Virus record (IMG/VR): IMGVR_UViG_3300046467_001894
Coordinates: 1-28,394 of that record
Length of the DNA: 28,394 nt
Source: a virus
Strand: one strand, 5' to 3'
Shown: positions 7,251 through 26,917 of the stretch, one piece after another
How positions within the stretch are numbered: the stretch's first letter is position 1
Layout: each line of letters starts with the position of its first letter
Notes under the pieces: generated by a model
The model's database searches: none
Told to the model about the DNA's origin: nothing
What the model saw: only the letters and a program-made list of their open reading frames with translations
Program-made: the position numbers and the translations under genes

Positions 7251-7591
7251 GTATCACTCCCGGCTCTTTCTTTATGTTTATCATATTCACTGTATTTCTT
7301 TTTAAGAAACTTATCAACCTTATATATCTTAAATCCATTTATTGTATCATGATGAGTCATATAATTCTCAAACATAGAACTTGTTACTCCTAAAGGAATA
7401 GAAGCGTATATATCATCTGCTTGTACTATTTCAGATACAAAGTATTTCCATACCTTAACAAAATTTAACTTAGCTGTTATATTAGGGGCAATAAATACTC
7501 CTGATATCATATAACCATTTAAAGAACGATCAAATCTATAAAATAAAGCGGATTCCCCTTCTTGTATCATACTAGCATGTGTAAATATCAT
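7247..7591 (-). CDS. unknown 114-aa protein between ketoacyl synthase and portal
   Basis: 114 residues, aromatic-rich and mixed alpha/beta. The C-terminal part (GFKIYKVDKFLKKKY) is vaguely like the end of small phage GNAT acetyltransferases, but I see no acetyl-CoA-binding R/Q-x-x-G-x-G/A motif. It is locked by ATGA overlaps to the ketoacyl synthase gene upstream and the portal gene downstream, so it is made with both. It could be a head protein, an acyl-transfer partner or neither; function is not assigned. Confidence 0.7.
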   Translation of the reverse strand: MIFTHASMIQEGESALFYRFDRSLNGYMISGVFIAPNITAKLNFVKVWKYFVSEIVQADDIYASIPLGVTSSMFENYMTHHDTINGFKIYKVDKFLKKKYSEYDKHKERAGSDT

Positions 7592-8610
7592 AATATCTCC
7601 ACAACTGCAGATGAATATACGTTACCCATTCCTGCCCCTAAACTAAGAAATGTACCCGATTCTTCCTGTACTGCTAATGCTGTTTCTATAGCAGTTGATA
7701 CTCCCATAGTATGACCAATACGTAATTTATAGTTAACTGTTCTAATATCCCCAAATATATCTTTAATTAACTTACTCTCTATATCATTATCAGTTGAAAA
7801 AGTACTATGAGTTTTAATAAAATCAATCTTACTGGTGGTATGTGTGCTAACTCTATTCATAACTTTCTTATACCCAGTACCATTACATGAGATACCTAAT
7901 GGAGACACATGATATTCAGCCGCTATATGTATATCTTTAATTACCGCTAATATCTTATTGTTTGTATTGCGATTACATACTTCATTTTCAAATACTGATA
8001 TATTACATGCTTGTCCTAAGTGAAATTTAGTAATCTCTGGATTATCTTCTTCATCAACTAATTTACTTAATTTATGTTCGCCAAATACATGTAAGTATTC
8101 TTCTGCAAGCCCGTTATCTACTGAAACAACTACAACCGCATCAAGACGTTCTAACTGCAATAAAGTATAAGCAGTATACCAAGCAGAATGCCCACTAATA
8201 CAGCTTACACTATCTGTTGATATATAATCAAAAGATCCTAATTGACTAGCTAGATACCCAGCATATACTTGAGTAACTGCCATAGGTGCTAATCTATATA
8301 CCGGATACTGATCAGTCTTAGGAATACATGTTGTGTATCCCATCCAGCAAGTACTGCCTGAAGCTAATATTAACCCTACTTTACGAGTAGGAGTAGCTAA
8401 TAATTTTTTAATATAATTCCGAGTTCCAGAGACAGCTCCATGTTTACCTGTAAGAACATATCGTACTAATTCGCTAGTTACTAGTTTAATTCCTTTTGTA
8501 ACTAGCTCACCTCCTCCATTTCCGACTTGATGAACATATTGAGGATATGGAATATGGTCTAATAAAGTCAACTCTTCTGAGTAAACAGAATTAGTATGAG
8601 TCAGTAGCAT
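7588..8610 (-). CDS. beta-ketoacyl synthase-like condensing enzyme
   Basis: 340 residues, thiolase-fold condensing enzyme that would join an acyl thioester to a malonyl-ACP-type extender. The Cys-His-His triad is intact: Cys137 in SVSCISG, His268 in THSTFSTDND (FabF NAHGTST position) and His300 in GHTMGVSTAIE, with the Lys five residues before the last His (Lys295) as in FabF. FabF proteins are about 410 residues, so this one is short, mainly in the N-terminal half and dimer-contact loops. I chose the ATG at 8610: an AAAGG site lies just upstream and the ACP stop is one base away; an earlier in-frame ATG at 8694 would run through the ACP gene. It ends in an ATGA overlap with the next gene. 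Confidence 0.85.
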   Translation of the reverse strand: MLLTHTNSVYSEELTLLDHIPYPQYVHQVGNGGGELVTKGIKLVTSELVRYVLTGKHGAVSGTRNYIKKLLATPTRKVGLILASGSTCWMGYTTCIPKTDQYPVYRLAPMAVTQVYAGYLASQLGSFDYISTDSVSCISGHSAWYTAYTLLQLERLDAVVVVSVDNGLAEEYLHVFGEHKLSKLVDEEDNPEITKFHLGQACNISVFENEVCNRNTNNKILAVIKDIHIAAEYHVSPLGISCNGTGYKKVMNRVSTHTTSKIDFIKTHSTFSTDNDIESKLIKDIFGDIRTVNYKLRIGHTMGVSTAIETALAVQEESGTFLSLGAGMGNVYSSAVVEIL

Positions 8611-8611
8611 A

Positions 8612-8986
8612 TTAGACCTTTGGATTACCCGTTTTAGATCGTATAGCGTCATCATCATTATTAAATGAATGTTTAGAATACGCCATAGCATCATTATACG
8701 TAAAAGTTTGAGTAGCTTCTCTACTTATAAAATCTTTTAAAGTTCTAATAGTAAAATCCTTTTCTTTTGCAAGTTCTTGAAATGTATCTTCAGGAATGCC
8801 AAAAAAATCAGATACCCAAATAAAAAACATCATAACACTTAGGCTATCTAACCCATGAAGGTTAAAACTATCATCCATACTCGTTATTGGTTCGTATTCC
8901 TCATCTTCATCATGATCTTCTTTTAAAATTATATTAACAATGTATAAAAATTCTGTATCATCGAATGTAAATTTAGTTTTTTCCAT
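8612..8986 (-). CDS. acyl carrier protein with C-terminal extension
   Basis: 124 residues. Residues about 10-90 are an acidic four-helix ACP domain with the phosphopantetheine site GLDSLS; Ser48 is the predicted attachment residue. The holo-protein would carry acyl chains as thioesters. Ordinary ACPs are about 80 residues; this one has about 35 extra residues at the C-terminus that are polar and possibly disordered. No Shine-Dalgarno sequence is visible before the ATG at 8986. It is the first gene of the leftward capsid operon and is followed after one base by the ketoacyl synthase, its natural partner. No phosphopantetheinyl transferase is visible here, so the host enzyme is presumably used. 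Confidence 0.85.
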   Translation of the reverse strand: MEKTKFTFDDTEFLYIVNIILKEDHDEDEEYEPITSMDDSFNLHGLDSLSVMMFFIWVSDFFGIPEDTFQELAKEKDFTIRTLKDFISREATQTFTYNDAMAYSKHSFNNDDDAIRSKTGNPKV

Positions 8987-9075
8987 AGTATTAAATATAT
9001 TATCATTAAAAAGGGCGATAAATACGCATTAATAGTATATAACAAAAATCTATATCTAATACAAAGGAAATTAAT
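8987..9075. promoter_or_regulatory. divergent promoter region between capsid operon and plus-strand island
   Basis: This 89-bp, very AT-rich gap separates two divergent operons, so promoters for both directions must lie in or near it. On the minus strand TTGTAT followed by TATATA/TATACT at 17-19 bases resembles a sigma-70 pattern, but the match is loose. On the plus strand a clear AAAGGA ribosome site precedes the ATG at 9076. Exact promoters are not assigned. Confidence 0.45.
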
Positions 9076-9441
9076 ATGTTATCGGAAATTAAAATATATA
9101 GGCCTAGTAAAAAAACTAATAAACTCGAACATCATAAAACAATTTCAAAGAAAAATGTAAAACTAATATTTGATCAAAAATTAGAAACAAGTCGATCGCA
9201 TTATAATACTCGTAAACCTCAGTTTAAAGCTTCAGGAAAGAAACCTCACCCTAATTATACAGGCAATACAGTTCCAGATAAATACACTCCTGGAGCTGTA
9301 AAAAAAATATGCATGATGTGTAATAAAAAATACTATGCAACAAACGCGAGAAATACTAAATTTTGTAGTCAAAAATGTGGAAGAAATATGTCAAATGAAT
9401 ATAAAAAGGAGAGAGATCGTGTCAAAAGAAACAAACCCTAA
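9076..9441 (+). CDS. small basic zinc-finger protein
   Basis: 121 residues, strongly basic. The C-terminal third has a four-cysteine cluster, Cys79-x2-Cys82 and Cys97-x3-Cys101 (KICMMCNKKYY then KFCSQKCGR), followed by a Lys/Arg-rich helix, which fits a structural zinc finger binding nucleic acid. The N-terminal 70 residues are low-complexity and basic. A good AAAGGA site precedes the ATG. It is the first gene of a five-gene rightward island between two leftward late regions. Transcription-factor or DNA-binding role is inference. Confidence 0.75.
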   Translation: MLSEIKIYRPSKKTNKLEHHKTISKKNVKLIFDQKLETSRSHYNTRKPQFKASGKKPHPNYTGNTVPDKYTPGAVKKICMMCNKKYYATNARNTKFCSQKCGRNMSNEYKKERDRVKRNKP

Positions 9442-9823
9442 AGATGAAATAGGGACTAAAAAACCTAGATTTTATTCAGGATTACCTGCTAATGTAACTA
9501 AAGAAGTTAGTATCGGAATGATGGAAGGAGCTATGAAGTATGGACGTCATAACTATCGTATAGCAGGAGTTCGTGCTAGTGTATATATTGATGCAACTAT
9601 AGGCCATCTATTTGATTACTGGGAAGGTCAAGACATTGACCCAGATAGTAACCTTCATCATATAACTAAAGCTATAGCGTCTTTATATGTATTAAGAGAT
9701 GCTCAGTTACGAGGTATGTGTGAAGATGACCGTCCACCTAAATCAGATGTTGAAGGACATAAGGCTTATCTACAAGTTATTGTAGATGAGTTATTTAAAA
9801 AATATCCTAAGGAGACCCAATGA
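9419..9823 (+). CDS. dATP/dGTP pyrophosphohydrolase-like (DUF5664) protein
   Basis: 134 residues when started at the GTG at 9419, which has an AAAGGAGAG site at good spacing; the in-frame ATG at 9335 lies inside the upstream gene without such a site. The sequence has the DUF5664-type pattern: MMEGAMKYGRHNYR (about 34-47), an alpha-helical block with GHLFDYWEGQDIDPDSNLHH (62-81) and ITKAIASLYVL. The family belongs to the all-alpha NTP pyrophosphohydrolases (MazG-like) and would hydrolyse deoxynucleotides to monophosphates, altering nucleotide pools. It overlaps the upstream gene by 23 bases and the HU gene by four. Confidence 0.75.
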   Translation: MSKETNPKDEIGTKKPRFYSGLPANVTKEVSIGMMEGAMKYGRHNYRIAGVRASVYIDATIGHLFDYWEGQDIDPDSNLHHITKAIASLYVLRDAQLRGMCEDDRPPKSDVEGHKAYLQVIVDELFKKYPKETQ

Positions 9824-10095
9824 CTAAAGAAGACATAGCAACTATAGTAGCTAAAACAGTAAAAATCAGAAAAGGAGTAGCAGAAGAAAGTATCAATGCA
9901 ATTTTAAATTGTATGAAACAAGGCTTAAATAAAGATGGATATGTAACTATTCGAAAATTTGGTCACTTTCACACTAAAAATAAGAAAGCACGAGTAGGAC
10001 GCAATCCTAGAACAGGTGAATCAGCAGTTATTACAGCTAGAAGAGTTGCTACTTTTAGAGCATATAAACCATTAAAACAACAAGTAAATCAATAA
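9820..10095 (+). CDS. HU/IHF-like DNA-bending protein
   Basis: 91 residues, the usual HU length. The family signature is clear: two N-terminal helices, then GYVTIRKFGHFHTKNKKARV, the arm motif GRNPRTGE, and the terminal VATFRAYKPLK. HU dimers bend and compact DNA; in phages they are used in DNA condensation, packaging or gene control. It starts with an ATGA overlap after the pyrophosphohydrolase gene and an AAGGAG site is present. Confidence 0.92.
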   Translation: MTKEDIATIVAKTVKIRKGVAEESINAILNCMKQGLNKDGYVTIRKFGHFHTKNKKARVGRNPRTGESAVITARRVATFRAYKPLKQQVNQ

Positions 10096-10110
10096 ATTAA
10101 AGGAGATACT

Positions 10111-10473
10111 ATGGGAGACTTAACAGCTAATTTTAATCGATCTGAATACGCCTGTAAATGCGGGTGTGGGAAAGATGATATTAAAGAAGAACTAGCTATA
10201 AAAGTACAACAAGTTAGAGACACCTTAAATAGGTCAATAACGATAAATAGTGGAATTAGATGCAGCAATCATAATAGTACAATTAATGCTACTCCTACAT
10301 CTAGCCATATAGGTGGCTGGGCAGCTGATTTAAAGTATACAGGCTCTGCAGAACGATATGCATTGCTATATGCTATTTTACCTATCTTCGATAGAGTCGG
10401 TATTGCTAAGACTTTTATACATGTAGATGTAGATGCTAATAAGACTGCTGGTGTAGTTTGGCTTTATTCTTAA
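10111..10473 (+). CDS. M15 family zinc peptidase, probable endolysin
   Basis: 120 residues, a Peptidase_M15_3-type domain alone. The N-terminus has the usual cysteine-rich CKCGCG (15-20). Zinc ligands are His66 and Asp73 (SHIGGWAADL) and His104 in HVDVD, with Asp106 nearby. Members cut peptide cross-links in peptidoglycan. There is no signal peptide, so release probably depends on a holin. An AAAGGAGATACT site precedes the ATG. The next gene is a small membrane protein, making a plausible endolysin-holin pair. Confidence 0.85.
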   Translation: MGDLTANFNRSEYACKCGCGKDDIKEELAIKVQQVRDTLNRSITINSGIRCSNHNSTINATPTSSHIGGWAADLKYTGSAERYALLYAILPIFDRVGIAKTFIHVDVDANKTAGVVWLYS

Positions 10474-10482
10474 GGAGACGAT

Positions 10483-10611
10483 ATGATTGGAGAACTATCT
10501 GGAGATACAGCAGATTTCTTAAATGAAATCCCCTGGTTTGACGGTATTATCTACATATTACTAATAATGGGTGCGTATGTATTCTACAAATGGGTAAACA
10601 GTAAATTTTAA
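10483..10611 (+). CDS. 42-aa single-span membrane protein, holin candidate
   Basis: 42 residues with a strong AAGGAGACGAT site before the ATG. The N-terminal 20 residues are acidic, followed by one membrane span (GIIYILLIMGAYVFY) and a short tail ending KWVNSKF, so N-outside/C-inside topology is likely. It directly follows the M15 peptidase on the same strand. The position and topology suggest a pinholin or holin, but there is no recognisable family signature. Its stop overlaps the end of the convergent minus-strand gene by four bases. Confidence 0.6.
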   Translation: MIGELSGDTADFLNEIPWFDGIIYILLIMGAYVFYKWVNSKF

Positions 10612-10700
10612 TGTATTCTAGCCATTGCTACAACATACACAATACCTAATGTAACACAAATAGCTACTGCACCTCCTATAATCCAGAGAAAGATCTTCAT
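10608..10700 (-). CDS. 30-aa single-span membrane peptide
   Basis: MKIFLWIIGGAVAICVTLGI leads a 30-residue peptide that is almost wholly one membrane span, ending MARIH. It begins by an ATGA overlap with the small basic gene upstream, which supports real translation. It is the last gene of the leftward lysis/tail-adjacent operon and meets the rightward island tail to tail. No family is known to me. Confidence 0.45.
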   Translation of the reverse strand: MKIFLWIIGGAVAICVTLGIVYVVAMARIH

Positions 10701-10771
10701 TTCTTTTTCTTCTTTTTAGGTTTAGGAGGCCTGCCTCTTTTAGTACCGTAAGTTCCTTTTCCTCTAGGCAT
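10697..10771 (-). CDS. 24-aa Arg/Lys-rich microprotein
   Basis: A 24-residue peptide, MPRGKGTYGTKRGRPP followed by a lysine run. Short proteins beginning with this Gly/Lys/Arg-rich pattern recur in marine phage genomes, often beside the small KKYGKKKF protein that precedes it here. A GGA-containing weak ribosome site lies at the end of the upstream gene; the ATG starts two bases beyond that stop. DNA or RNA binding is suggested by charge only. Confidence 0.55.
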   Translation of the reverse strand: MPRGKGTYGTKRGRPPKPKKKKKK

Positions 10772-10772
10772 A

Positions 10773-10946
10773 TTATCCTTTCTTCCTTTTTTTACCTGCT
10801 GCACCTAATGCAGCAAATTTTTTCTTACCATATTTTTTTCTACCAATATGAGCAGCTAATGCTGCACTTCCAACTTTTTTCTTTAATGCTTTAAAGCGCT
10901 CTCCACTACCTAATGGAGGTTTTGGTTTATTAGTAGATGTAGCCAC
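10773..10946 (-). CDS. 57-aa basic protein with GSGERFKAL / GRKKYGKKKF motif
   Basis: Starts at a GTG with a strong AAGGAG seven bases upstream. The 57 residues contain PPLGSGERFKALKKK (about 10-24) and AAHIGRKKYGKKKFAAL (about 31-47), a pattern I recognise from small conserved proteins in many phages (usually annotated hypothetical or virion-associated). It is highly basic, so nucleic-acid contact is likely. No function is established that I can cite. Confidence 0.65.
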   Translation of the reverse strand: MATSTNKPKPPLGSGERFKALKKKVGSAALAAHIGRKKYGKKKFAALGAAGKKRKKG

Positions 10947-10979
10947 TTTAAACTCCTTTTTATTACTCCTTGGTTGCCA

Positions 10980-11390
10980 TCAAAGTTTAATTCGTTTTGA
11001 TATTTTAATTCTATTTTTTAAATGCTCTTTTTCAATACTTTCTTTACTTTGTCCAAAGTATTCAACAGCTAAATGCTCTTTAATCATTTGCTTATTTAAA
11101 TTAATTCCATCAACTACTATCTCACCAAGTATTCTCCCAAATTTACCCTTCTTATCTAAATAAGTCTTGAGCGTAATGTAAGAGCCCTTCTTGCACCTAT
11201 CTTTTAAGAACTGAGCTGATAGCTTACCGTAAAATTTCTCTTCCTTATCGCGTGTTCGTGACTCCGGAGTATCTATACCAAATAGTCTTATTCTTTGCTT
11301 AGCTAAAATAATACTAAATCCTAGGTCTATATCAACATCTATAGTATCGCCATCAATAACTTTAACTACTTTTGCTTTGTATTCGTTCAC
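10980..11390 (-). CDS. staphylococcal nuclease-like (SNase) protein
   Basis: 136 residues, one SNase OB-fold domain. The residues matching the active site are all present: Arg35, Asp40, Thr41 and Glu43 in RLFGIDTPE and Arg86 in KFGRILGE, with VIDGDTIDV at 11-19. The family cleaves DNA and RNA using calcium. No signal peptide is seen, so the protein acts inside the cell or is packaged. It starts at a GTG that overlaps the stop of a 25-aa peptide gene (GTGA). The role could be host DNA degradation or lysis-time nucleic-acid clearance. Confidence 0.85.
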   Translation of the reverse strand: MNEYKAKVVKVIDGDTIDVDIDLGFSIILAKQRIRLFGIDTPESRTRDKEEKFYGKLSAQFLKDRCKKGSYITLKTYLDKKGKFGRILGEIVVDGINLNKQMIKEHLAVEYFGQSKESIEKEHLKNRIKISKRIKL

Positions 11391-11464
11391 TTGTTTTTCT
11401 TTTCAAGTAAGAATTGTATTATTTTGAACGCTAAATCAAAAGCTTTATCAAATAAGTAAGCCAT
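11387..11464 (-). CDS. 25-aa amphipathic peptide
   Basis: A 25-residue reading frame, MAYLFDKAFDLAFKIIQFLL and a basic end, that would form one amphipathic helix. It fills the gap between the lipoprotein-like gene and the nuclease and is joined to the nuclease by a GTGA overlap. The upstream ribosome site is poor (AAAG). It is either a coupling or leader peptide or a small membrane-active protein; evidence is mainly positional. Confidence 0.35.
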   Translation of the reverse strand: MAYLFDKAFDLAFKIIQFLLEKKNK

Positions 11465-11467
11465 GCA

Positions 11468-11827
11468 TTACTTTACTATTCTATCTACTTTATCTGTTAG
11501 TTTATCAGTTATACCTTTATCTGTTTTACACACTTCTTTATATAAGTCATTGTTTCTACTTACTTGAGCTAAATCCTGAGATACAATCTCTGGAGGATTA
11601 TTCTCAAGCAACCACTTCTTAGTATCATCGTTTAGCCTAACTTCGTCATACCATAAACACTCTTTAGAATAGTAATCATTATGGTCATAAAACCCCAAAG
11701 CAAAATTAAAGACAGGAGGTATTAATTCGACTAAAGGCAAACCACTACATCCCATCGAGAACATCAGGCATACCACTACGAGTCCTAATTTTTGCTTTAG
11801 CTTCGTCAATCTCTTTCTCCACATCAT
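11468..11827 (-). CDS. lipoprotein-like lysis protein, outer-spanin candidate
   Basis: 119 residues from the ATG at 11827 (an upstream in-frame ATG at 11872 gives a less natural signal). A basic start and a hydrophobic segment lead to Cys27 in MFSMGCSG, a weak lipobox because position -3 is Ser. The mature part has a paired-cysteine block, ECLWYDEVRLNDDTKKWL to LYKEVC, typical of small Rz/Rz1-like phage lysis proteins. The gene overlaps the end of the upstream membrane protein gene by 83 bases, an arrangement common for lysis genes. An outer-membrane role is inferred. Confidence 0.6.
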   Translation of the reverse strand: MMWRKRLTKLKQKLGLVVVCLMFSMGCSGLPLVELIPPVFNFALGFYDHNDYYSKECLWYDEVRLNDDTKKWLLENNPPEIVSQDLAQVSRNNDLYKEVCKTDKGITDKLTDKVDRIVK

Positions 11828-12032
11828 TTTGAGCGGCCATTCCTTTAGGATGATTAATGTTATTAAATACATTACCCGCTAACCAGTTAAAAATAGGCCA
11901 TATAGTTCCAAGCACTGGGATCTTTTGTACAAACTTATCAGGTAAAGAACCTGTGATTGCTGTAAATACTAATACTATTTGTCCTACTATTGCAAACCAT
12001 CCTTGTCCTTCGAACATTGCAGCTATATCCAT
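11745..12032 (-). CDS. membrane protein, holin- or spanin-like
   Basis: 95 residues with two hydrophobic segments, about 10-28 (WFAIVGQIVLVFTAITG) and 38-55 (IPVLGTIWPIFNWLAGNVF), and a charged helical C-terminus. An AGGAGAATAGT ribosome site precedes the ATG at 12032. The gene overlaps the following lipoprotein-like gene in another frame. With the other small membrane proteins nearby it forms a lysis-type cluster, but which one is the holin cannot be told from sequence. Confidence 0.6.
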   Translation of the reverse strand: MDIAAMFEGQGWFAIVGQIVLVFTAITGSLPDKFVQKIPVLGTIWPIFNWLAGNVFNNINHPKGMAAQNDVEKEIDEAKAKIRTRSGMPDVLDGM

Positions 12033-12052
12033 ACTATTCTCCTAATGGTGTT

Positions 12053-12334
12053 TTATTGAGGTAGCTCAATTTTATACCAATGATCTGGGTGTCTAACAAA
12101 CCTCGGGCTACTCAAATCGTATACAGAATAGCAACGATTGTTTGGTGATCTAAATACCATCTCTTTAGCATGTTTAGGTCTAGCTGAGCAAGATACTGGA
12201 ATTGCGCTGTAGCTCACTTCTAAACCTGACTTATGGATAATCTGTATTTGTGTAGGAATTTGATTCACAGACCAATTAACCAATTTATGTGGAGATGGAA
12301 TTACGAGCATGATCGTTATGATCAACTCATTCAT
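12053..12334 (-). CDS. unknown 93-aa protein, possibly exported
   Basis: 93 residues. The first 13 residues are hydrophobic (ELIITIMLVIP) and could be a short signal or anchor. The rest is polar with two cysteines (in PVSCSARP and NNRCYSVYD) that could form a disulfide in the periplasm. The start is an ATGA overlap with the upstream membrane protein gene. No family is recognised. Confidence 0.6.
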   Translation of the reverse strand: MNELIITIMLVIPSPHKLVNWSVNQIPTQIQIIHKSGLEVSYSAIPVSCSARPKHAKEMVFRSPNNRCYSVYDLSSPRFVRHPDHWYKIELPQ

Positions 12335-12537
12335 TTTTTCTTAGCAGTTGCATCCCGATCAGTTCCCATTTTCCAAGTAGCAGCACCACCTATACCGAGT
12401 AGACCCCATGCTTCTTGTGAAAAATTATGCCAACCACCCATCTGACAAACTGTCATTAATACGCCTAAACCCATTAATGCATAAGTTTTACCACCTGGCA
12501 TTAATTTATCTATCATAGTAATTATAGTAGGTACCAT
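12331..12537 (-). CDS. 68-aa two-span membrane protein, holin-like
   Basis: 68 residues with two short hydrophobic segments (about 20-35, ALMGLGVLMTVCQMGG, and 42-56, AWGLLGIGGAATWKMG) and a basic C-terminus DRDATAKKK. A strong AAAGGAGAATACAA site precedes the ATG. This pattern is common among small phage membrane proteins annotated as holins. It lies in a run of five small membrane protein genes; holin function is plausible but not proven. Confidence 0.65.
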   Translation of the reverse strand: MVPTIITMIDKLMPGGKTYALMGLGVLMTVCQMGGWHNFSQEAWGLLGIGGAATWKMGTDRDATAKKK

Positions 12538-12549
12538 TTGTATTCTCCT

Positions 12550-12621
12550 TTATAAGTTATGAACTATTAACCATACAGCTAAAGTTATTGCACTAGCTAC
12601 AAAAAACCAAACTCTAGTCAT
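12550..12621 (-). CDS. 23-aa single-span membrane microprotein
   Basis: MTRVWFFVASAITLAVWLIV plus three residues: a single membrane span with one Arg at the start. An AAAGG site is well placed in the end of the upstream gene; its ATG overlaps that gene's stop region by eight bases, and its own stop overlaps the next ribosome site (TTATAAAGGAG). This tight packing supports translation. Function unknown. Confidence 0.45.
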   Translation of the reverse strand: MTRVWFFVASAITLAVWLIVHNL

Positions 12622-12829
12622 TTTTTCCTTTAGAAGTAATAAGATGGGCAACAACCATTTCCATATTACGTTCTAATGAATTTAAATCTTCTTTAGTTAG
12701 CACTACTTTTTCGAGAGCACTAACCCGGTCACTTAACGTATCATGATTTCTAAAAATTCTTTTTGTTGTAAACCCGCCTACTAGAACAAAAAAACCAATT
12801 ACCATTTCATGAAATTTATCCGTTATCAT
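12614..12829 (-). CDS. 71-aa membrane-anchored coiled-coil protein
   Basis: 71 residues: one N-terminal hydrophobic span (MVIGFFVLVGGF, about 9-20), a basic step KRIFRNH, then an amphipathic coiled coil (LSDRVSALEKVV, LNSLERNMEMVVAHL). This is the topology of an inner-membrane spanin or an XhlA-like lysis accessory. It is followed by a 23-aa membrane peptide and preceded by a longer membrane coiled-coil protein. No enzyme motif is seen. Confidence 0.65.
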   Translation of the reverse strand: MITDKFHEMVIGFFVLVGGFTTKRIFRNHDTLSDRVSALEKVVLTKEDLNSLERNMEMVVAHLITSKGKND

Positions 12830-12839
12830 TACGGGCCCT

Positions 12840-13415
12840 TTATTTTGTTTTACTCATTGCTGCTAATGGATTTTCAAGTGCTTTAGTTATCTTCTTATCT
12901 AGTTTATTCTCTAATGCTTCTATTTGAGTATCTACTCTTTGAAGTTTGTTATCTACTTTTTGTAATTTATCATCCCAACGCTTTGATGTGTCAGCTATTA
13001 ATTCCCTTACTTCATTCTCAGCATTTCTCATTGCTGTTCTTGTTTCTAGACCATCTGCTCTAGAACGTTTATCTATTGCAGCTATTTGATCTGAAAAGCC
13101 ATTAATATCTGTTTTCATAGTTGTTCGTATATCTCTTGTAGTATCCTGAGCTTCTCCTACAATTTCTTTTATAGAATTAATTTCACTACTAATTAGTTCT
13201 TTTGTAGTAGTAACTTCAATATCTAAAACTCCTAACTTTTTATCAAACCCTGAAAGGTCAGGTGCTACATATGAAGTTATTTGTTTCTTCATATCCTGGT
13301 AATCTTTGTAGAATTCGAACCCACCCCAAAGTCCAGCCCCAATAGTACCTAGTAAAGATATGATGACAAATAATTTACCACCAGTTGCTTTTATTCCTCC
13401 GTATTCGACTTCCAT
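12840..13415 (-). CDS. membrane-anchored long coiled-coil protein
   Basis: 191 residues. A conserved-looking start MEVEYGGIKATGGKLFVIIS leads into one membrane span (about 14-33, LFVIISLLGTIGAGLWGG), then FEFYKDYQDMKKQITSYVAP and about 130 residues of alternating charged coiled coil. Proteins with this same opening recur in marine phages (my recollection) and are annotated as structural or unknown. The topology would suit an inner-membrane spanin or an envelope-contact protein. No strong ribosome site is seen before the ATG; the upstream stop is 9 bases away. Confidence 0.65.
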   Translation of the reverse strand: MEVEYGGIKATGGKLFVIISLLGTIGAGLWGGFEFYKDYQDMKKQITSYVAPDLSGFDKKLGVLDIEVTTTKELISSEINSIKEIVGEAQDTTRDIRTTMKTDINGFSDQIAAIDKRSRADGLETRTAMRNAENEVRELIADTSKRWDDKLQKVDNKLQRVDTQIEALENKLDKKITKALENPLAAMSKTK

Positions 13416-13424
13416 AGTTACTTA

Positions 13425-15185: not shown

Positions 15186-15284
15186 TTATTGCGTTGGTGC
15201 AACTACTGGTAGCCATCGATACAATCCGTAAAACACGCCAAGCATAATCGAAATGTATATCAGTAGTTTCACTACCACACCCAT
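15186..15284 (-). CDS. 32-aa single-span membrane peptide
   Basis: MGVVVKLLIYISIMLGVFYG and twelve more residues form one membrane span flanked by basic residues. Its ATG lies in the end of the oxygenase gene (13-base overlap) and its stop is five bases before the next start, so it fills the gap exactly. No separate ribosome site is visible. Function unknown. Confidence 0.45.
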   Translation of the reverse strand: MGVVVKLLIYISIMLGVFYGLYRWLPVVAPTQ

Positions 15285-15856
15285 GATACATATGAATATC
15301 TAACCCCTTTTGTGACAGGAGCAATTTGATGTGGGTATAAAAAATTTGAAGGAAATATCAAAATATCTCCTGCCTTTGTCTCTATTGTTTTATCCTCAAA
15401 CATAATCAATTCGCCTCCATCATAATCATCATTCAATATTCCTATGATTGAAAGTATCGGCACACCTTTTCTTTTACCATCAAACAAACTATGAATATGG
15501 TCACAATGATTTTTCATTGTTTGATCTGGGTAGTATCGTATAAACTTTAAAGCAGAGTAGCCATTCCACCCATTATACCAATCAAATTTTAAATACTTTG
15601 CATAATCTAGTATTGTTGCATGTAACTTTTTTATTATGGCTTTATTTATTTTTTCTACTTTATCAGAATATAAACTCTCCCCAGTTACTTCTGGTTCATT
15701 GTTTCCCGAAGGTTTACCCAGTGTGCCACAAAGAGGATAATACCAATCGTGTTTTTCCCAAGCATTAACATTCAATTCTTTTATACAATTGGTACATTCT
15801 TTTTTATCTAAAAAATTCTTTTTGTGAAAAACATAATGTTCTATGTTCTTATTCAT
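15272..15856 (-). CDS. 2-oxoglutarate/Fe(II) oxygenase, prolyl 4-hydroxylase-like
   Basis: 194 residues from the ATG at 15856, which has an AAGGAG site and overlaps the upstream stop (ATGAATAA). The double-stranded beta-helix motif is complete: His117-x-Asp119 (NHCDHIH), distal His176 (YPHQIAP) and Arg186 (GVRYSYVSW) for 2-oxoglutarate. Blocks YDGGELIMFE and KAGDILIFPS are typical of P4H-type enzymes. Members hydroxylate proline or other side chains in proteins. It lies next to tail-fibre genes and a small fibre-associated protein, so a virion protein may be the substrate; that is inference. Confidence 0.85.
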   Translation of the reverse strand: MNKNIEHYVFHKKNFLDKKECTNCIKELNVNAWEKHDWYYPLCGTLGKPSGNNEPEVTGESLYSDKVEKINKAIIKKLHATILDYAKYLKFDWYNGWNGYSALKFIRYYPDQTMKNHCDHIHSLFDGKRKGVPILSIIGILNDDYDGGELIMFEDKTIETKAGDILIFPSNFLYPHQIAPVTKGVRYSYVSWVW

Positions 15857-16163
15857 TCTCCTTCCATTCTGTATTATCTTCATCCCACATATAAACCACA
15901 CCTTCCACTGTAGGTTTTGGTACTAGAGGTTTCCAATCACAAGTTTCCTCAACAAATATACACGAAGGGAAAATTTTAGCAGGAATAAAAGCATCACGAA
16001 CTGAGTCGTAACTACCACCTATGGTGGCAGGGTTTTTTCTAAATTCCCCAGTCAAACTATATTTGACCCAAGAACTTGCATCTTCTAAGCTATCAATGAA
16101 ATCTTGATCGGCAATAATAATGTCTGTAACAATGTTATTTGAATCTATTTTTGCAAAGCTCAT
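15849..16163 (-). CDS. small tail-fibre-associated protein
   Basis: 104 residues. The pattern MSFAKIDSNNIVTDIIIADQ, FRKNPATIGGSYDSVRDAFI, PAKIFPSCIFVEETCDWKPL and YMWDEDNTEW is the one I recognise from a short protein common in cyanophages and other marine phages, commonly next to tail fibres and 2OG oxygenases. It is beta-rich with no export signal. The ribosome site is AAGGAGAAAAT before the ATG at 16163. It follows the glycine-rich fibre gene; a chaperone or fibre-tip role is inferred. Confidence 0.7.
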   Translation of the reverse strand: MSFAKIDSNNIVTDIIIADQDFIDSLEDASSWVKYSLTGEFRKNPATIGGSYDSVRDAFIPAKIFPSCIFVEETCDWKPLVPKPTVEGVVYMWDEDNTEWKENE

Positions 16164-19018: not shown

Positions 19019-19030
19019 TTTTTTAAACTC

Positions 19031-20259: not shown

Positions 20260-20309
20260 TGTTAACTCCTTAGGAGGTTGTTCTCAGCATTGGCAATGTT
20301 TGCAGGTGT

Positions 20310-20337: not shown

Positions 20338-20342
20338 ATTAA

Positions 20343-21023: not shown

Positions 21024-21044
21024 ACTAATATCCTTTAAGAAGGA

Positions 21045-21111
21045 GGTAGGCAAGAGTACCGAAACCCTTACCTACCCGGGAGGAAGCACAACTCGTTGAG
21101 AGGACGAGTTG
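21045..21111 (-). promoter_or_regulatory. two hairpins in the TerL 3' untranslated gap
   Basis: The gap after TerL holds two inverted repeats. One pairs 21089-21096 with 21104-21111 (8 bp, 7-nt loop), and the same 7-base arm recurs at 21114-21120, allowing alternative pairing. The other pairs 21045-21054 with 21067-21076 (10 bp, 12-nt loop); its only mismatch is a G-U wobble in the leftward RNA but C-A in the opposite RNA. No U-run follows either, so they look like RNA processing, stability or attenuation structures rather than simple terminators. Confidence 0.55.
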
Positions 21112-21121
21112 GCACGAGTTA

Positions 21122-22723
21122 CTAAACAAAATAAGAACTATCTCCTGCTTTCTTGGTACTACCATCATCACCCCACATAACTGAGTTTTCTAATTCGTCA
21201 TCTTCCGGTGCTTGTGGTCCTACTTCACTTGGTTTCCACGCATTTAATTCTGCCAACATTGTGATCGTATCTATGTGATCATCGTGTTTACTTTTAAACC
21301 CCTTAAGAGTAGCTAAAGATAACTCAAAAAGCAACTCTACAAGTTCTTCACTATCTTTTAATTCTTCAGGCAACCATATTTTTTTAGATTTAAATAGCGG
21401 AACAGCATTCTGCTGAAACCTACTCATTTTATCTTTAGTAGGCCTAATACCTATTGTATTACTATTTCTTCCCTTGGACAAAGTAAAGTAATTATTACGT
21501 TGTCCCATTTCATTTTGAATCCAACTGATAAAACCGCCTTGTTGCCCAGTAACTTCAATACCTACTTCTTGTGGTCTGTATTCTTGAACTAACCGAAATA
21601 GCTCATCTATTGTATGATCCATCAGGGCCCGCTTACAATATCCATCCACCCAAAGCCAATCCCCGTTATTATTGTACGCCCATACATTGATTACACTAAA
21701 GTCAGCATGCTGTTTATCACTAGTTGCAAAATCAGTAGTTATATAAAAATTATAGGCACCCATATTTTTCAATACGTTACTGCGTTTATACCAAATTATA
21801 TCTGAATCTTTAATTAACCGGTCTTCTTCTGATGTAATACGTAACATTAACTCCTGGTTAAATGAGTCTAGTTGTCCGGCGCCCTTAGACTTAGTATATT
21901 GGTTATTTACATAATCATAACTAAACCTATCTTCCCAAGCCCCTTTAAACTCTTCACGAGAGCACGGGAATGTCTCACAAACCGGATATACATTAACGTA
22001 CCAGACGCCCGATTCAATTGCTTTATATAGAGGATCTTTAGCATTAAACGGAGTTCCAGACCAAATAATTTTCCTCTTATTAGGATGTAACGCATAGTCA
22101 ATGGCCGAGTAAACAGTATTTTCAACATTTTCAATAATTGTCGCGGACCTAGCATCTTCATCTCCTAATAAATCATCAAGTACTGCAAGTTGTGGTCTCG
22201 TGTTCAATTCCACTGTACCACGAACACCTGTCTTTGCTCCATGTCCTGTAACAACAAATTCTTTGCCTTCAGCATTTTTAAAATACCATCTGATATCAGT
22301 AAATCTAGTAGTTGAAACATATCGTTTTAAAAACTCACTTTGCTCACATCGGCGCTCTAGACGAAGTCGCATTTTCTTAACACCATTCTCAATACTATCT
22401 GAAAGATACAAAGCATAATCTACTGTGCCAAATCCCGGAATAGACCCATAAACAGCTATATACAAGAATAAATACTCAGCAAATATAGTTGTTTTAGCCA
22501 AACCACGCGCGCACATGTTGGCCGTGTTTTCTTTTTTACCTGCTATTTTATCCAACATTTTATAATGGATTATAGGAGTTTTATTTTCTTCTCCTTTTTC
22601 TCCATTAACTAACTTAATAAAAGACACGAATTCTAAAGCAAACTCACTAGGTACGTAAGTAGGATCATCATCGTAATCAATGTCATTAAGCCATTCATCT
22701 ACTGTTTTTTTAACTAGGGACAT
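21122..22723 (-). CDS. terL: terminase large subunit
   Basis: 533 residues, packaging motor ATPase-nuclease. The Walker A-like P-loop is CARGLAKTT (71-79), Walker B VLDD (181-184), and the coupling motif SGTP (222-225). The C-terminal RNase H-like nuclease has Asp331 (ITTDFATSD), Glu390 (VGIEVTG) and Asp481/Asp482/Asp485 (KHDDHID). Length and motifs fit N4-like and related podophage terminases. The ribosome site GAGGTG precedes the ATG. It binds the portal during packaging. A 40-aa membrane peptide gene and FabZ come before it in the operon. Confidence 0.92.
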   Translation of the reverse strand: MSLVKKTVDEWLNDIDYDDDPTYVPSEFALEFVSFIKLVNGEKGEENKTPIIHYKMLDKIAGKKENTANMCARGLAKTTIFAEYLFLYIAVYGSIPGFGTVDYALYLSDSIENGVKKMRLRLERRCEQSEFLKRYVSTTRFTDIRWYFKNAEGKEFVVTGHGAKTGVRGTVELNTRPQLAVLDDLLGDEDARSATIIENVENTVYSAIDYALHPNKRKIIWSGTPFNAKDPLYKAIESGVWYVNVYPVCETFPCSREEFKGAWEDRFSYDYVNNQYTKSKGAGQLDSFNQELMLRITSEEDRLIKDSDIIWYKRSNVLKNMGAYNFYITTDFATSDKQHADFSVINVWAYNNNGDWLWVDGYCKRALMDHTIDELFRLVQEYRPQEVGIEVTGQQGGFISWIQNEMGQRNNYFTLSKGRNSNTIGIRPTKDKMSRFQQNAVPLFKSKKIWLPEELKDSEELVELLFELSLATLKGFKSKHDDHIDTITMLAELNAWKPSEVGPQAPEDDELENSVMWGDDGSTKKAGDSSYFV

Positions 22724-22737
22724 TATTCACCTCACGT

Positions 22738-22860
22738 TTACCCAAATGGGCTATCGAACCAACCCATCATTATTGTAATAAGAAAGTTATTGGTTAGCAG
22801 AGTTAATGTATTAATTGCTATCATCCAAATTAACCATTTAAAAATTACTGGCTTAATCAT
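22738..22860 (-). CDS. 40-aa membrane peptide before terL
   Basis: 40 residues with one or two hydrophobic stretches (VIFKWLIWMIAINTLTLL, NFLITIMMGWF). A good AAAGGA ribosome site sits at the end of FabZ, and the ATG begins one base after the FabZ stop. It fills the gap between FabZ and terL almost completely. No family is known; a membrane location for a neighbour of FabZ is notable but proves no link. Confidence 0.5.
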   Translation of the reverse strand: MIKPVIFKWLIWMIAINTLTLLTNNFLITIMMGWFDSPFG

Positions 22861-22861
22861 A

Positions 22862-23299
22862 TTATTCCTTTATGTTATTTATTATAACGGATGTCCATGT
22901 AGCTTGAGTTATTAATACGTCATCAACATATGCTTTACCAGAAAATTTAGCATATTTGGATAAGTTAGTAGTGATATTTATATCAAATTTTATTTGATCT
23001 CCAGGAAGTGCAGGTTTAATAAATTTAACCTTATCTACCGTGGCTACATAAACTAATTGTCCTTTATCTAGATTGGCACAACCAAATAGTAGCCCTCCAG
23101 ATTGAAACATCCCCTCTAATATAAGTACTCCTGGCATAATAGGAAAATCGGGGAAATGCCCACTAAAATAAGGCTCGTTATGTGATACATTTTTTAAAGT
23201 AACTATATTTGTATCAGTTTTACTTATAACTTTGTCTACCATAAGAAACGGGTATTTATGCGGAAGTGTTTTAAGTATGTCTGAAACGTTATTTTTCAT
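22862..23299 (-). CDS. fabZ: FabZ-type 3-hydroxyacyl-ACP dehydratase
   Basis: 145 residues, a single hot-dog domain of the usual FabZ length (about 150). It would dehydrate 3-hydroxyacyl-ACP to trans-2-enoyl-ACP. The active site is intact: His48 in FSGHFPDFPIMPGVLILEG and Glu62, fourteen residues apart as in E. coli FabZ (54 and 68). The start LPHKYPFLMVDKV is also typical. I use the ATG at 23299 with GAGGT upstream; the codon before it is a TTG. It overlaps the end of the candidate small terminase gene and lies just upstream of terL, far from the ACP-ketoacyl synthase pair. Confidence 0.92.
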   Translation of the reverse strand: MKNNVSDILKTLPHKYPFLMVDKVISKTDTNIVTLKNVSHNEPYFSGHFPDFPIMPGVLILEGMFQSGGLLFGCANLDKGQLVYVATVDKVKFIKPALPGDQIKFDINITTNLSKYAKFSGKAYVDDVLITQATWTSVIINNIKE

Positions 23300-24062
23300 C
23301 AATTACCTCATAAGTTGTTTCAACAGGTGGCGGTGGGGGAGGGTTAACCTTTCGGGCTAATATTTCACTATGCGCTATTTCTTTAGCACTAGATTGCCCA
23401 TTTAAGATCATTTTTAACTGCTGTTGTGCAAGTGCTTTTGTAGTTGCACGTAGATCCTCTACTAAGTCATTACTATAACCAATATCAATTTCTAATTTCG
23501 CAGCAGTTGGAGCTGTTAGATTACTCATTAAACTTTCAGCTGCTTTTTGTCTTACTAGTTCTGATTTAGCTGTGTGCATTAAATTTGCTTGTACATTAAT
23601 AGCTTCCTGATAGATGCCTGCATTTAGTATATGCGTTGGCACCATAGTTTGTTCTATAATCTTAGTTATTAAACTGTTTTTACTATAGTTATCAGCAAAA
23701 CTTGCTATATATGAGGCTGACGCCCCTTTATCTATTAGATTTTGATATCGATCTGGAAACACTTTACTATAAGCAACAGAAGACTTGTCCCCCATTAATT
23801 TAAGAGACACAAATTTAATAGCATTCACATAAGCTGCTAATGAGTGCTTACCAGTTGCTAGTACTGACGAGTAAGTTAGTACATTATCCCTAAATACCCT
23901 TCTTAGTTCAGAATCGGGCTCTGAGTTAATAACAGCAACAATCTCATCAGTTATGTGTTTTCTAAAGCGTTTATCGGGTACTACTCCGGATAACTGCTCC
24001 TTAGTTAAATGATCTGTTGTTTCTAATTCCGTATCAGTATCTTTTAAGTTAGTTAATTGCAT
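23289..24062 (-). CDS. candidate terminase small subunit / DNA packaging protein
   Basis: 257 residues, mostly helical, with a proline run (PPPPPP) near the C-terminus. Conserved-looking blocks are HSLAAYVNAIKFVSLKLMGD (about 73-92), KVFPDRYQNLIDKG, MVPTHILNAGIYQEAINVQA and HTAKSELVRQKAAESLMSNL. I recall this pattern in phage proteins encoded just upstream of terL and sometimes annotated as small terminase. There is no clear HTH. It overlaps the upstream winged-helix gene by 14 bases. Role inferred from location. Confidence 0.5.
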   Translation of the reverse strand: MQLTNLKDTDTELETTDHLTKEQLSGVVPDKRFRKHITDEIVAVINSEPDSELRRVFRDNVLTYSSVLATGKHSLAAYVNAIKFVSLKLMGDKSSVAYSKVFPDRYQNLIDKGASASYIASFADNYSKNSLITKIIEQTMVPTHILNAGIYQEAINVQANLMHTAKSELVRQKAAESLMSNLTAPTAAKLEIDIGYSNDLVEDLRATTKALAQQQLKMILNGQSSAKEIAHSEILARKVNPPPPPPVETTYEVIDEK

Positions 24063-24363
24063 TGTTAGCCTCGTTCCATTTAATGATTAACGCATTATGT
24101 GATGTATCCTCCGCGTAACACTCATGCGGAGATACCATCCATTTGTGGTCATCTAGCTGTACTAAAAACTTTTTTTTCACTAATTCAGTCCAGTACTTAT
24201 CCCAAGTACGATAATCAGTTATCCACTTTATTGTCTTAATAAACTGGTGCTTGTCTATCTCATTATTTTTATTAGCTAAAAGCATAAGTGGGAGAACTAA
24301 CGCCTGGGCTTTACGTGATAACTCACTAGTAATCGCTATATCTGTATTAATGTATTTACTCAT
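24049..24363 (-). CDS. small winged-helix protein, RepL-like
   Basis: 104 residues. Helices (RKAQALVLPLMLLANKN, KHQFIKTIKWITDYR, WDKYWTELVKKKFLVQ) followed by a beta hairpin and the phrase KWMVSPHECYAED match the winged-helix layout of RepL-type replication proteins, whose wing ends in an YxxNP-x-x-x-x-G segment. The similarity is structural pattern only. It begins by a TAATG overlap with the AlkB-like gene. It may be a DNA-binding regulator, a replication factor or a partner of packaging. Confidence 0.5.
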   Translation of the reverse strand: MSKYINTDIAITSELSRKAQALVLPLMLLANKNNEIDKHQFIKTIKWITDYRTWDKYWTELVKKKFLVQLDDHKWMVSPHECYAEDTSHNALIIKWNEANNAIN

Positions 24364-25133
24364 TAAGGTATATGTCTGAATGTTAAACTTATCCTACGTC
24401 CTAATGGCGCACTTACTGAATGTTTGTACTTATTCTGGAAGTCACCTGCAGGCATCACGTAACAACTTCTATCTGTTAGTTTAATCTTAAAATATTTACT
24501 ACGATCATTCCTAGCTATAGTAGCAACTGTTGTTTCTCCTAAGCTGATAGTTGCTACAGCACCTACGATTCCGTCATTTTCCGTGAAGACAGCTTCATCA
24601 TCTGAGTGAAGTTCTAGACCCTTATTAGTATATAAATTAACTAATAAACTATTGAAATAGTTATTAGGAAACACTAACTGGTCTTCTATATCTCTAGCAA
24701 TGTTTTGAAATAAGACAGGCATTTGCTGAGCTTCGTGCCTTAAATCTGTATACGCGTATTCAACACAACCAAATGCTTGTTCTTCATTTAGATTAGTTGA
24801 TACATCTACAGGACCATACCAAGTAGCTATGTGGTTACGATTGGTATGAAAAATATACCCAAGTTCCTGATCTTTTCCTCCCCAATCAGCTTTTTCTTCC
24901 CCTTTACCCGTTAATTTTTGCCAGGTTTCAGGAGCATACTTTTGTAACCATGCTGCTTTTTGTTTTCTAGTCATACTGCCTGCTGCTTTGGTATTACCTC
25001 GGCTGATTTTTTCCTGTTTTACAACTGAGTCCCAAAGACTATTAAAGTCTCGTAAAACAGGATGTTCTTCGTTATCAATAAATCCTAAGATTATTTCCTG
25101 GTCATCTATAAGTATGATCTTATCATTAAGCAT
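24363..25133 (-). CDS. AlkB-like 2-oxoglutarate/Fe(II) dioxygenase
   Basis: 256 residues. The C-terminal catalytic domain (about 120-256) has the AlkB pattern NLYTNKGLELHSDDE with His176-x-Asp178, distal His238 (NKYKHSVSAP) and the arginines Arg247/Arg253 in RRISLTFR. AlkB enzymes remove alkyl groups from DNA or RNA bases by oxidation. The N-terminal 100 residues are extra: a helical stretch with KAAGSMTRKQKAAWLQKYAP and a Trp/Lys-rich segment, possibly nucleic-acid contact. The gene starts right after a 59-aa membrane peptide gene, within the leftward packaging operon. Confidence 0.85.
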   Translation of the reverse strand: MLNDKIILIDDQEIILGFIDNEEHPVLRDFNSLWDSVVKQEKISRGNTKAAGSMTRKQKAAWLQKYAPETWQKLTGKGEEKADWGGKDQELGYIFHTNRNHIATWYGPVDVSTNLNEEQAFGCVEYAYTDLRHEAQQMPVLFQNIARDIEDQLVFPNNYFNSLLVNLYTNKGLELHSDDEAVFTENDGIVGAVATISLGETTVATIARNDRSKYFKIKLTDRSCYVMPAGDFQNKYKHSVSAPLGRRISLTFRHIP

Positions 25134-25134
25134 T

Positions 25135-25314
25135 TTATTTCTTCTCTTTTTTCCATCGCGTAAGCTGAAGGTACATTAAATGATTTTTTCTTTTTTGCGT
25201 TTTCCGTAACTTAGCTTGATAAACGTGATGCGCTGAAGGAGATCTAATAACACTTGTTACTAGTGACATAACAAACAAAGGCCACAATCCAGTTAGATAT
25301 GTCTTAAGAGTCAT
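25135..25314 (-). CDS. 59-aa membrane peptide with basic tail
   Basis: 59 residues. MTLKTYLTGLWPLFVMSLVT and a few more residues form one membrane span, and the C-terminal 30 residues are strongly basic (KLRKTQKRKNH, RWKKEKK). The ATG lies 11 bases inside the radical SAM gene end, and the stop is one base before the AlkB-like ATG, so the frame exactly fills the gap between the two. A cytoplasmic basic tail could bind nucleic acid or acidic phospholipid. No family is known. Confidence 0.5.
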   Translation of the reverse strand: MTLKTYLTGLWPLFVMSLVTSVIRSPSAHHVYQAKLRKTQKRKNHLMYLQLTRWKKEKK

Positions 25315-26917
25315 TTAACACTTTTTTACTAAGTAAGCGCATTCTTATAACAATTATAGCCCAACGACAAAGTTTCCAAATAGTTTCAAAAAAATATTTT
25401 GGGTAGAAAACAAGAGGCGATTCCATCGGTAAAGTAGGTCGCCTATCTTTACGTGATTTACGGCGGAAAACCCCACCTTTAGTAGGATGAATTTTTTCAA
25501 TACCAATACAACCTTTAAACATAGTAATTAGGGTAACTAGATCTAGTGCTTTACTGGAACTTGTACCAGTTGCCATCATACGTTTTAAAGTAGTTTTGGT
25601 ATGCTCATATGTGTAATAAGCATCCCAAGCTTTATAATAAGTTTCTTCCCAATTTATTTTTGACATTTTAGGATGTGCAGTAACTGCATGATTTAAATCA
25701 TACATGTTTAAATCTTCATCCATAGCAACTCCAGCAGTATGTAGCTTTTCATGATCTTTTGAACCAGGAAGAGGCGTAAGACAAAGAAACGATATTAGAT
25801 CCATAGGAAGTTCTTTCTTAATAATTTCAATGTCGCGCAAGATTGATTCTTGAGTATCATTAGGAAAACCTAAAATATACCCGCAAGAGGTTATAATCCC
25901 AGCCTCATCTAAAGCAAGTAACATTTTGCGGTAATCAGAAATTTTATTCTGCCGCTTATCGACACTTAAAAGAGCATCAGAATTAATATTTTCTAAACCG
26001 ATAAAAACCTGTGTAACACCTGCACGTCTTGATTTTTCAATAAACCCTGGCAATTTATAGGCAAGAGTATCAATCATAAAGGAAAACTCGATTTTTAATT
26101 TATGAACTTCACGCAACTCAATAAACTTATCTAAAATACTTTCCCAATTCTTATTTCGTGCAAAGTCATCATCAGAGATAAAAAATAAATTTAAGCCCTG
26201 TTTGACGTTAAAGCGAATTATGCGCTCAATACTTTCAACTGACCTGTTTCTTGATGCGTGTCCTTGGACATTTATAATCGTGCAGAACGAACAAGTAAAA
26301 GGGCAACCTCGTCCAGCATCAAAACTAGCTGTTAAACCTGCCGTCAGACGAACTCTATCTGCTGGAATGAATGGCATTGCAGTATTACTAATATCAGGCA
26401 AATCATCTAAAAAGTTGTAAATTGGTTCAAGTTTATCATTAGACGCATCAATTAAAACTTGTCCAAGTCTGTCTTCAACTTCTCCTGAAAACATTGAAAC
26501 ACCAATGTCTAAAGCCTTTTGCATGTAAGCATCGGGCTCTTTAATCATTGCCAACACTCCTGATATATGAAAACCTCCCATAGCAACTTTAATACCCATT
26601 GCTCGTAATGGCGTAGCAATATCTAATGCACGGGGAAATTGACTTGATTGTACACCAACAAGCATGAGCATTCCGTCATCTGCACTTTTTATTAAAGAAG
26701 CAATTTTATCCGTATTAATGTGTGTATTTGTTTCGTCAAATACATGAAGGTCTATCTTGACATTTTTACCCAATACTCTAGTTTTTTTACATTCAGTAGC
26801 TAAACCATAAAGACAAGCCAGTGAATTTGCTGGTAACCAAGACCTAAACCACTGAATCACATAGCCGTTATCATCATAATGCGAGGGCGCCACCAAAACA
26901 AGGCTGAATGTTTTCAT
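25304..26917 (-). CDS. B12-binding-domain radical SAM protein
   Basis: 537 residues, class B-type architecture. Residues about 55-165 form a Rossmann-like cobalamin-binding domain (LVGVQSSQFP, KVAMGGFHISG); the strict DxHxxG base-off motif is not seen. The radical SAM core starts with Cys205-x3-Cys209-x2-Cys212 (GRGCPFTCSFC), the 4Fe-4S site, and continues with FFISDDDF, TQVFIGLENIN and CGYILGFPNDT. The C-terminus is hydrophobic and basic (WKLCRWAIIVIRMRLL), possibly membrane associated. Relatives methylate or rearrange unactivated carbons, including lipids and tetrapyrroles; the substrate is unknown. It starts with ATGA after the RepL-like gene. Confidence 0.85.
   Translation of the reverse strand: MKTFSLVLVAPSHYDDNGYVIQWFRSWLPANSLACLYGLATECKKTRVLGKNVKIDLHVFDETNTHINTDKIASLIKSADDGMLMLVGVQSSQFPRALDIATPLRAMGIKVAMGGFHISGVLAMIKEPDAYMQKALDIGVSMFSGEVEDRLGQVLIDASNDKLEPIYNFLDDLPDISNTAMPFIPADRVRLTAGLTASFDAGRGCPFTCSFCTIINVQGHASRNRSVESIERIIRFNVKQGLNLFFISDDDFARNKNWESILDKFIELREVHKLKIEFSFMIDTLAYKLPGFIEKSRRAGVTQVFIGLENINSDALLSVDKRQNKISDYRKMLLALDEAGIITSCGYILGFPNDTQESILRDIEIIKKELPMDLISFLCLTPLPGSKDHEKLHTAGVAMDEDLNMYDLNHAVTAHPKMSKINWEETYYKAWDAYYTYEHTKTTLKRMMATGTSSSKALDLVTLITMFKGCIGIEKIHPTKGGVFRRKSRKDRRPTLPMESPLVFYPKYFFETIWKLCRWAIIVIRMRLLSKKVLNDS

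Follow-up and report, generated by a model that had tools for sequence, protein, structure and literature searches.

Here we describe a gene cassette in the 28.4-kb IMG/VR viral fragment IMGVR_UViG_3300046467_001894 (28,394 nucleotides, the whole of which we call the window) that encodes an acyl carrier protein (ACP), a β-ketoacyl synthase (KS) and a small third protein, ORF7247. Its sequence marks the window as a genome fragment of an N4-like (Schitoviridae-type) phage, and sequence comparison likewise indicates that the conserved unit is ACP-[KS]-ORF7247 at the head of the portal/capsid operon. Among the viruses examined, those with the third gene likewise encode an injected protein whose start is hydrophobic, which hints at lipid attachment to that protein. 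We propose, with a probability of about 0.4, that a widespread phage-encoded set of ACP and KS (sometimes with the dehydratase FabZ) and a small GNAT-type transferase lipidates the N-terminal region of a DNA-ejection protein, such that the virion would carry a lipid-armed membrane-penetrating protein. The underlying idea of a phage acyl-ACP system that attaches its product to a phage protein, with a GNAT-fold transferase acylating the ejection protein, is one that we also hold tentatively.

The ACP gene of the window (8612..8986; this and every feature below lies on the minus strand) matches phrog_28189 (1e-14) and encodes the motif GLDSLS, in which the D-S-[LM] phosphopantetheine serine is residue 48; the four-helix context was read from sequence alone. 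Its PP-binding Pfam score of 16.5 bits is below the cut-off of 20.8, and in alignments the serine is invariant across relatives, including those without a KS. The KS gene (7588..8610) is of a phage type, matching phrog_35856 (5e-111) and FabF-type models, and its Cys137, His268, Lys295 and His300 are invariant in 31 distinct KS sequences and in all 80 of a larger alignment. A start at 8694 was rejected in favour of 8610, where an ATG lies one base past the ACP stop and homology to relatives begins. The window KS is under the curated cut-offs (PF02801, 16.7 versus 20.8; fabF TIGR03150, 42 versus 494), and on sequence we class it as a divergent KS of phage type rather than as FabF. ORF7247 (open reading frame at 7247..7591, 114 amino acids), the third gene of the cassette, accompanies ACP in relatives whether or not they have a KS, and is a putative acyltransferase by its position only. 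Because of the one-base spacing between ACP and KS, together with ATGA overlaps at the KS/ORF7247 and ORF7247/portal junctions, ACP-KS-ORF7247-portal forms a single tightly packed operon head. Ratios of non-synonymous to synonymous substitution (dN/dS) against relatives were 0.10-0.49 for ACP, KS, ORF7247 and FabZ, and thus indicate purifying selection on all four. Both ACP and KS fall into existing, unnamed PHROG families and so are not new as individual genes.

An earlier sequence-only reading of this DNA had described a dispersed four-gene module of ACP, KS, FabZ and a B12-type radical S-adenosylmethionine (SAM) enzyme. Gene calls, motifs and the N4-like portal, capsid and terminase genes bear out that the four genes are present, catalytically intact-looking and phage-borne among late genes; the four-member make-up was nonetheless incomplete, as ORF7247, part of the conserved unit, had been overlooked.

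A KS scan recovered relatives sharing the order ACP-KS-ORF7247-portal, and relatives were re-fetched via the terminase and via the portal to remove search bias. Among 80 portal-fetched loci, ACP-KS-ORF7247 was found in 45 and KS-ORF7247, with the ACP removed by the contig start, in 12; in a further 13 ACP and ORF7247 adjoin and the KS is cleanly absent. ACP-KS without ORF7247 occurred twice, ORF7247 alone (on a cut contig) once, and none of the three genes was seen in seven loci, two of them cut. Persistence of ACP and ORF7247 after loss of the KS is what would be expected if a carrier and a transferase form the core and the chain-building enzymes are optional. Escherichia phage Pollock, which is typical of N4-like phages, has its portal gene beside divergent lysis genes and lacks ACP, KS and ORF7247 there. 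The region upstream of the portal also appears as a swap locus: contigs L222/L224 and L225/L228 have near-identical portals, but upstream of them lie either tail-fibre-type genes with a 238-residue ORF or an ACP-KS set.

A cassette of like gene order was found in a second, distant phage group (group 2). The KS profile reaches distant viral contigs, among which MW202545.1 is the sole annotated record, and in 37 of 37 loci of this first scan an ACP ORF lies directly upstream of the KS; the KS Cys/His/Lys/His and the ACP serine are retained wherever covered. A group-2 profile detected at least 565 relatives, of which the best 80 were inspected, 79 of them new. ACP is directly upstream of KS in 78 of these 79 loci (the exception being cut at the contig start), and ACP-KS-third ORF heads the ejection-protein operon in 73; the third ORF went undetected in five, three of whose contigs end within the KS. 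Group-2 KS proteins score above the Pfam cut-offs. Moreover, the group-2 third ORF is confidently modelled as a GNAT acyltransferase fold (predicted local distance difference test, pLDDT, 88), and the model matches GNAT acyltransferases in the PDB with probability 1.00 and E 5.6e-5. The cassette is common, with 79 inspected contigs among at least 565 group-2 relatives in addition to the N4-like clade. No cultured phage carrying it was found. A phage-like contig in a Balneolaceae metagenome-assembled genome (L247, JAGYJQ010000016.1) also carries the group-2 cassette, with a KS at 56% identity, which may be a host hint or a binning error.

In both groups the cassette co-occurs with an internal/ejection protein, encoded downstream, that begins M-[G/S/A] followed by a hydrophobic or valine-rich amphipathic stretch. 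In the window the proposed acylation target is an internal/ejection-type virion protein (2..1051) truncated by the window edge, a full copy of which matches phrog_2220, a family of unknown function; its N-terminus, MSFVLDVLEAVVDVVVFIVEAVVQVVEMIVQLIMVLFG (about 932-1051), is a hydrophobic amphipathic segment. Across the N4-like clade, the protein after orf_1062 carries an extra segment of ~40 residues, e.g. MGFIASVISAIVDVIVYIVEAVVQIVEMVVQLIMVLLG, with a grand average of hydropathy (GRAVY) of 0.99-2.54. This segment is present in 14 of 14 aligned N4-like phages having ORF7247 and absent in five of five without it, namely L221, L222, L227, L228 (where ACP and KS are kept) and Pollock, whose start was taken at an internal ATG (MGLFSRKK), the annotated start being equally without the segment. 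In group 2 the product of the gene directly after the GNAT gene is a large protein whose position is that of an ejection/tape-measure protein, and it has the start M[G/S/A]AVV and valine-rich amphipathic repeats. It begins M[G/S/A] in 82 of 86 cases, residue 2 being Gly in 41, Ser in 33 and Ala in 8; the frequent Ser and Ala rule out a strict, myristoylation-type requirement for glycine-2.

Cassette-less phages provide the comparison. The hub and the small gene recur in cultured Caulobacter phages, GB2A for example, where the cassette is missing and the next gene follows immediately; the first ejection protein of GB2A shares the C-terminal part (51% over 65 residues) and lacks the amphipathic start. 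A hub-based scan ranked by similarity to GB2A gave 80 relatives, all cassette-less, with 55 distinct first downstream proteins, none of which has a valine-rich start. Comparing the N-termini of these 55 with those of 74 cassette phages, median Val fraction was 0.03 versus 0.29 and GRAVY -0.40 versus 0.74 (Mann-Whitney p 1e-19, a value that ignores relatedness and is not a measure of evidence strength).

Gene order, catalytic residues, the GNAT fold in group 2 and the co-occurrence with an amphipathic N-terminus in two phage groups are the observed parts of our proposal; ACP loading, acyl transfer, the target and the role in DNA entry are its inferred parts. The phage would produce its own ACP together with its late proteins; a phosphopantetheinyl transferase of the host would prime this ACP, and host enzymes would load it. 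The phage KS, where present, and FabZ in some phages would extend and tailor the acyl chain, the remaining steps of the cycle falling to host reductases. The gene that follows the KS would supply a GNAT-fold acyltransferase (a confident assignment in group 2, a putative one for ORF7247) that transfers the chain to the internal/ejection protein, most likely at or near the M-[G/S/A] amphipathic N-terminus. The acylated protein could then act as a lipid-assisted membrane anchor or channel during DNA entry into the next host. The sequence-only reading had named a lipid-modified virion among possible outcomes; this one is favoured by the new evidence, with the refinement that the likely target is an ejected protein and not the capsid.

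Several observations weigh against this proposal. The predicted model of ORF7247 has a pLDDT of 54 and no Foldseek match, and profile-profile comparison of ORF7247 with the group-2 GNAT protein, done twice, detected no similarity. L225 and L228 have ACP and KS and lack both ORF7247 and the segment; the hydrophobic segment is thereby linked more closely to the third ORF than to ACP or KS. The sequences compared are related and non-independent, and each group may represent one or few events. Finally, among viral models the group-2 third ORF has further matches, to 'internal virion protein A' and to DUF2824; since some ordinary podophage internal proteins have a GNAT fold, it may be an assembly protein.

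FabZ behaves as an optional member. The window copy (22862..23302) scores 149.7 bits against the NCBIfam FabZ cut-off of 113, and the catalytic His and Glu are retained in aligned copies, except that contig G043 has Asp in place of Glu. FabZ in relatives is positioned between the gp67-like gene (23289..24062 in the window; phrog_2109, 1e-70) and the terminase large subunit (21122..22723; phrog_38, 6.5e-93). At 77 terminase-fetched loci it ranges from a close ortholog (86-96%) through a divergent copy (36-56%) to complete absence, and at several FabZ-less loci a gap of just 5-8 bases remains; this polymorphic presence rules out FabZ as a core member. Twelve contigs span both loci: seven have KS and FabZ (the window, G001, G002, G003, G031, G038 and G043), two KS alone (G041 and G046), three neither (G028, G045 and G047), and none FabZ alone. 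G001 and G002 are a nearly identical phage, and the FabZ of G031, of which the final 59 residues alone are on the contig, was missed by the Pfam search. FabZ was therefore seen only alongside KS, an association that is only suggestive, given how few the contigs are and how related to one another.

The radical SAM gene (25304..26917; Pfam Radical_SAM 65.8 bits, cut-off 29.5) encodes an accessory protein that probably lies outside the cassette. It contains the motif CPFTCSFC and resembles BchE/HpnJ-type enzymes. Its radical SAM domain is clear; for the putative B12 type named earlier, one B12-type model covers residues 64-253, with no separate Pfam B12-binding match at E<0.01. The gene is missing from many relatives that retain FabZ, which rules out a four-gene module that includes it. 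In close relatives it is gained and lost jointly with an AlkB-like gene, as a variable insert; in a wider set each is also found singly. The AlkB-like gene (24363-25133), adjoining the radical SAM gene, is one of two 2OG-Fe(II) (2-oxoglutarate-dependent) oxygenase genes in the window, the other being at 15272-15901. Taken together, the proposed dispersed module is borne out in part, in that FabZ was seen only with KS where both loci are readable. The unit kept across relatives is ACP-[KS]-ORF7247; the four genes are not kept as one unit, with the radical SAM gene accessory, FabZ often absent or strongly divergent, and KS cleanly absent from 13 of 80 portal loci.

Neither a reductase nor a malonyl transferase adjoins the KS. 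In agreement with the earlier statement that reductases are missing, a search of 13 records, including two of ~74 kb, found no FabG-like ketoreductase (PF13561); enoyl reductase was not searched for separately. No phosphopantetheinyl transferase was found in the same records, and formation of holo-ACP would require that of the host.

A serious rival is remodelling of host lipids. In this account ACP, KS and FabZ would raise or divert fatty-acid synthesis of the host and thereby alter membrane lipids, host FabG/FabI and AcpS would finish the cycle, and the third ORF and the hydrophobic segment would be coincidental neighbours. In its favour, every enzyme fits type II fatty-acid synthesis, the FabZ is genuine and was seen only together with KS, and such a role has already been proposed for phage ACP and fabF genes. 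Nevertheless, ACP persists without KS and FabZ, the cassette lies in both phage groups among genes for structural and ejection proteins, and the linked third ORF and N-terminal segment are left unexplained; we regard this account as somewhat unlikely.

In another explanation the third ORF serves the hydrophobic segment of the ejection protein as a chaperone or assembly factor, and ACP(-KS) has another end such as binding a host ACP partner. The resemblance of the group-2 third ORF to GNAT-fold podophage internal virion proteins is in keeping with this, as is L228, which has ACP and KS and lacks both the third ORF and the segment, so that the segment tracks the third ORF. We consider it unlikely, as in both groups the genes for ACP, KS and the third protein adjoin and in many cases overlap, and a non-catalytic role would not require the Ser, Cys, His and Lys that are all retained. 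More improbable still is that ACP, KS and a GNAT-type protein make a small molecule, an N-acyl amide or short polyketide, that is released or packaged. N-acyl amides could arise from GNAT, ACP and KS, and the nearest cellular KS genes found adjoin ACP genes, on one contig together with SDR- and dehydratase-looking ORFs; judged by eye, the Sulfurovum/Campylobacteraceae clusters that hold them resemble aryl-polyene clusters. Those KS proteins are only 25-29% identical, though, KS-less phages retain ACP and ORF7247, and the tie to the N-terminus of one phage protein is unexplained.

The late genes around the cassette place the window among N4-like phages, with the portal, capsid and terminase of Schitoviridae all present. 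The gp59-like portal (5157..7250; phrog_1216, 1e-228) matched 471 records and is 50-58% identical to Schitoviridae portals in the best rows, and the major capsid protein is ~49% identical to N4-like counterparts. A gene for the giant virion RNA polymerase is not in the window; relative G038 has a 4208-residue ORF, a candidate by its place. At 26914-27255 of the window lies a winged-helix-type ORF resembling RepL, a Firmicute plasmid replication protein family, which is kept upstream of the terminase region of the clade. In G008 (L076-L078), N4-like late genes are followed at ~44.4-53.4 kb by apparent replication genes from a different type of phage; this contig may be misassembled or mosaic.

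If the proposal is true, a lipidated ejection protein would offer a new answer to the long-standing open question of how short-tailed phages cross the host envelope, and would represent a new kind of virion chemistry. Since the cassette is common and its genes have so far been labelled hypothetical or taken for stray fatty-acid genes, some cases of phage 'fabF/ACP auxiliary metabolism' may have to be reinterpreted. A literature search that covered few subscription journals returned no report of this cassette or of acylated phage ejection proteins. We rate the cassette as new as a system, its genes being known singly, and as less so if fatty-acid supply is the right explanation.

Among cellular systems, FabF and FabZ of type II fatty-acid synthesis share their catalytic residues with the phage proteins; FabZ exceeds its curated cut-off, whereas the window KS, at ~340 residues, is far under those for FabF. 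A first scan of species genomes found no cellular source of the KS. A second scan returned the phage-like Balneolaceae contig (56%), remote KS proteins of Sulfurovum/Campylobacteraceae (25-29%) and one Bdellovibrionota contig (24%). The Sulfurovum/Campylobacteraceae clusters (L248, L251 and L253), which hold the nearest cellular KS found, combine ACP and KS genes with other ORFs of lipid- or polyene-type appearance. Many INPHARED records matching FabZ and KS (Listeria, Enterococcus 'phage', mostly unannotated; e.g. OR846916.1, OR846615.1 and MT835927.1) were left out, as they resemble host fatty-acid operons and are probable contamination.

Phage fatty-acid genes reported as auxiliary metabolism, namely the ACP of Alteromonas phage R22Y, the fabG-acpP-fabF set of Rhodobacteraceae prophages and the fabF of pelagimyophages, resemble the cassette in being phage-borne ACP or KS genes. 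The prophage set has the normal bacterial order, and none of these genes is described with a transferase beside ejection genes. The ACP of R22Y, itself of the Schitoviridae, was ruled out as the same family, with no match to the window ACP or KS family. MW202545.1 (Caudoviricetes sp. isolate ctpbd312, Manatee Spring) is not N4-like; its KS is 28.5% identical to that of the window, and its ACP and third ORF are annotated as hypothetical.

A further parallel is the RtxC/HlyC system, in which HlyC, a GNAT-related enzyme, acylates a membrane-inserting protein from acyl-ACP (PMC8339906). The likeness to RtxC/HlyC and its RTX protoxin lies in the acyl-ACP donor, the GNAT-related transferase and the membrane-inserting protein target (PMC8339906), the donor role and the target being putative in our phages. 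The RtxC/HlyC enzyme has a conserved His, whereas the third ORF has no invariant His in our alignments (A8 and A9), and neither ORF7247 nor the group-2 third ORF matched the RtxC-type Pfam family; because the family match and the conserved His are both lacking, we do not file the cassette under RtxC/HlyC. There, internal lysines of a secreted toxin are acylated, whereas here the target is a candidate ejection protein; and while the RtxC/HlyC system uses the ACP of its host, in the cassette both ACP and KS are encoded by the phage.

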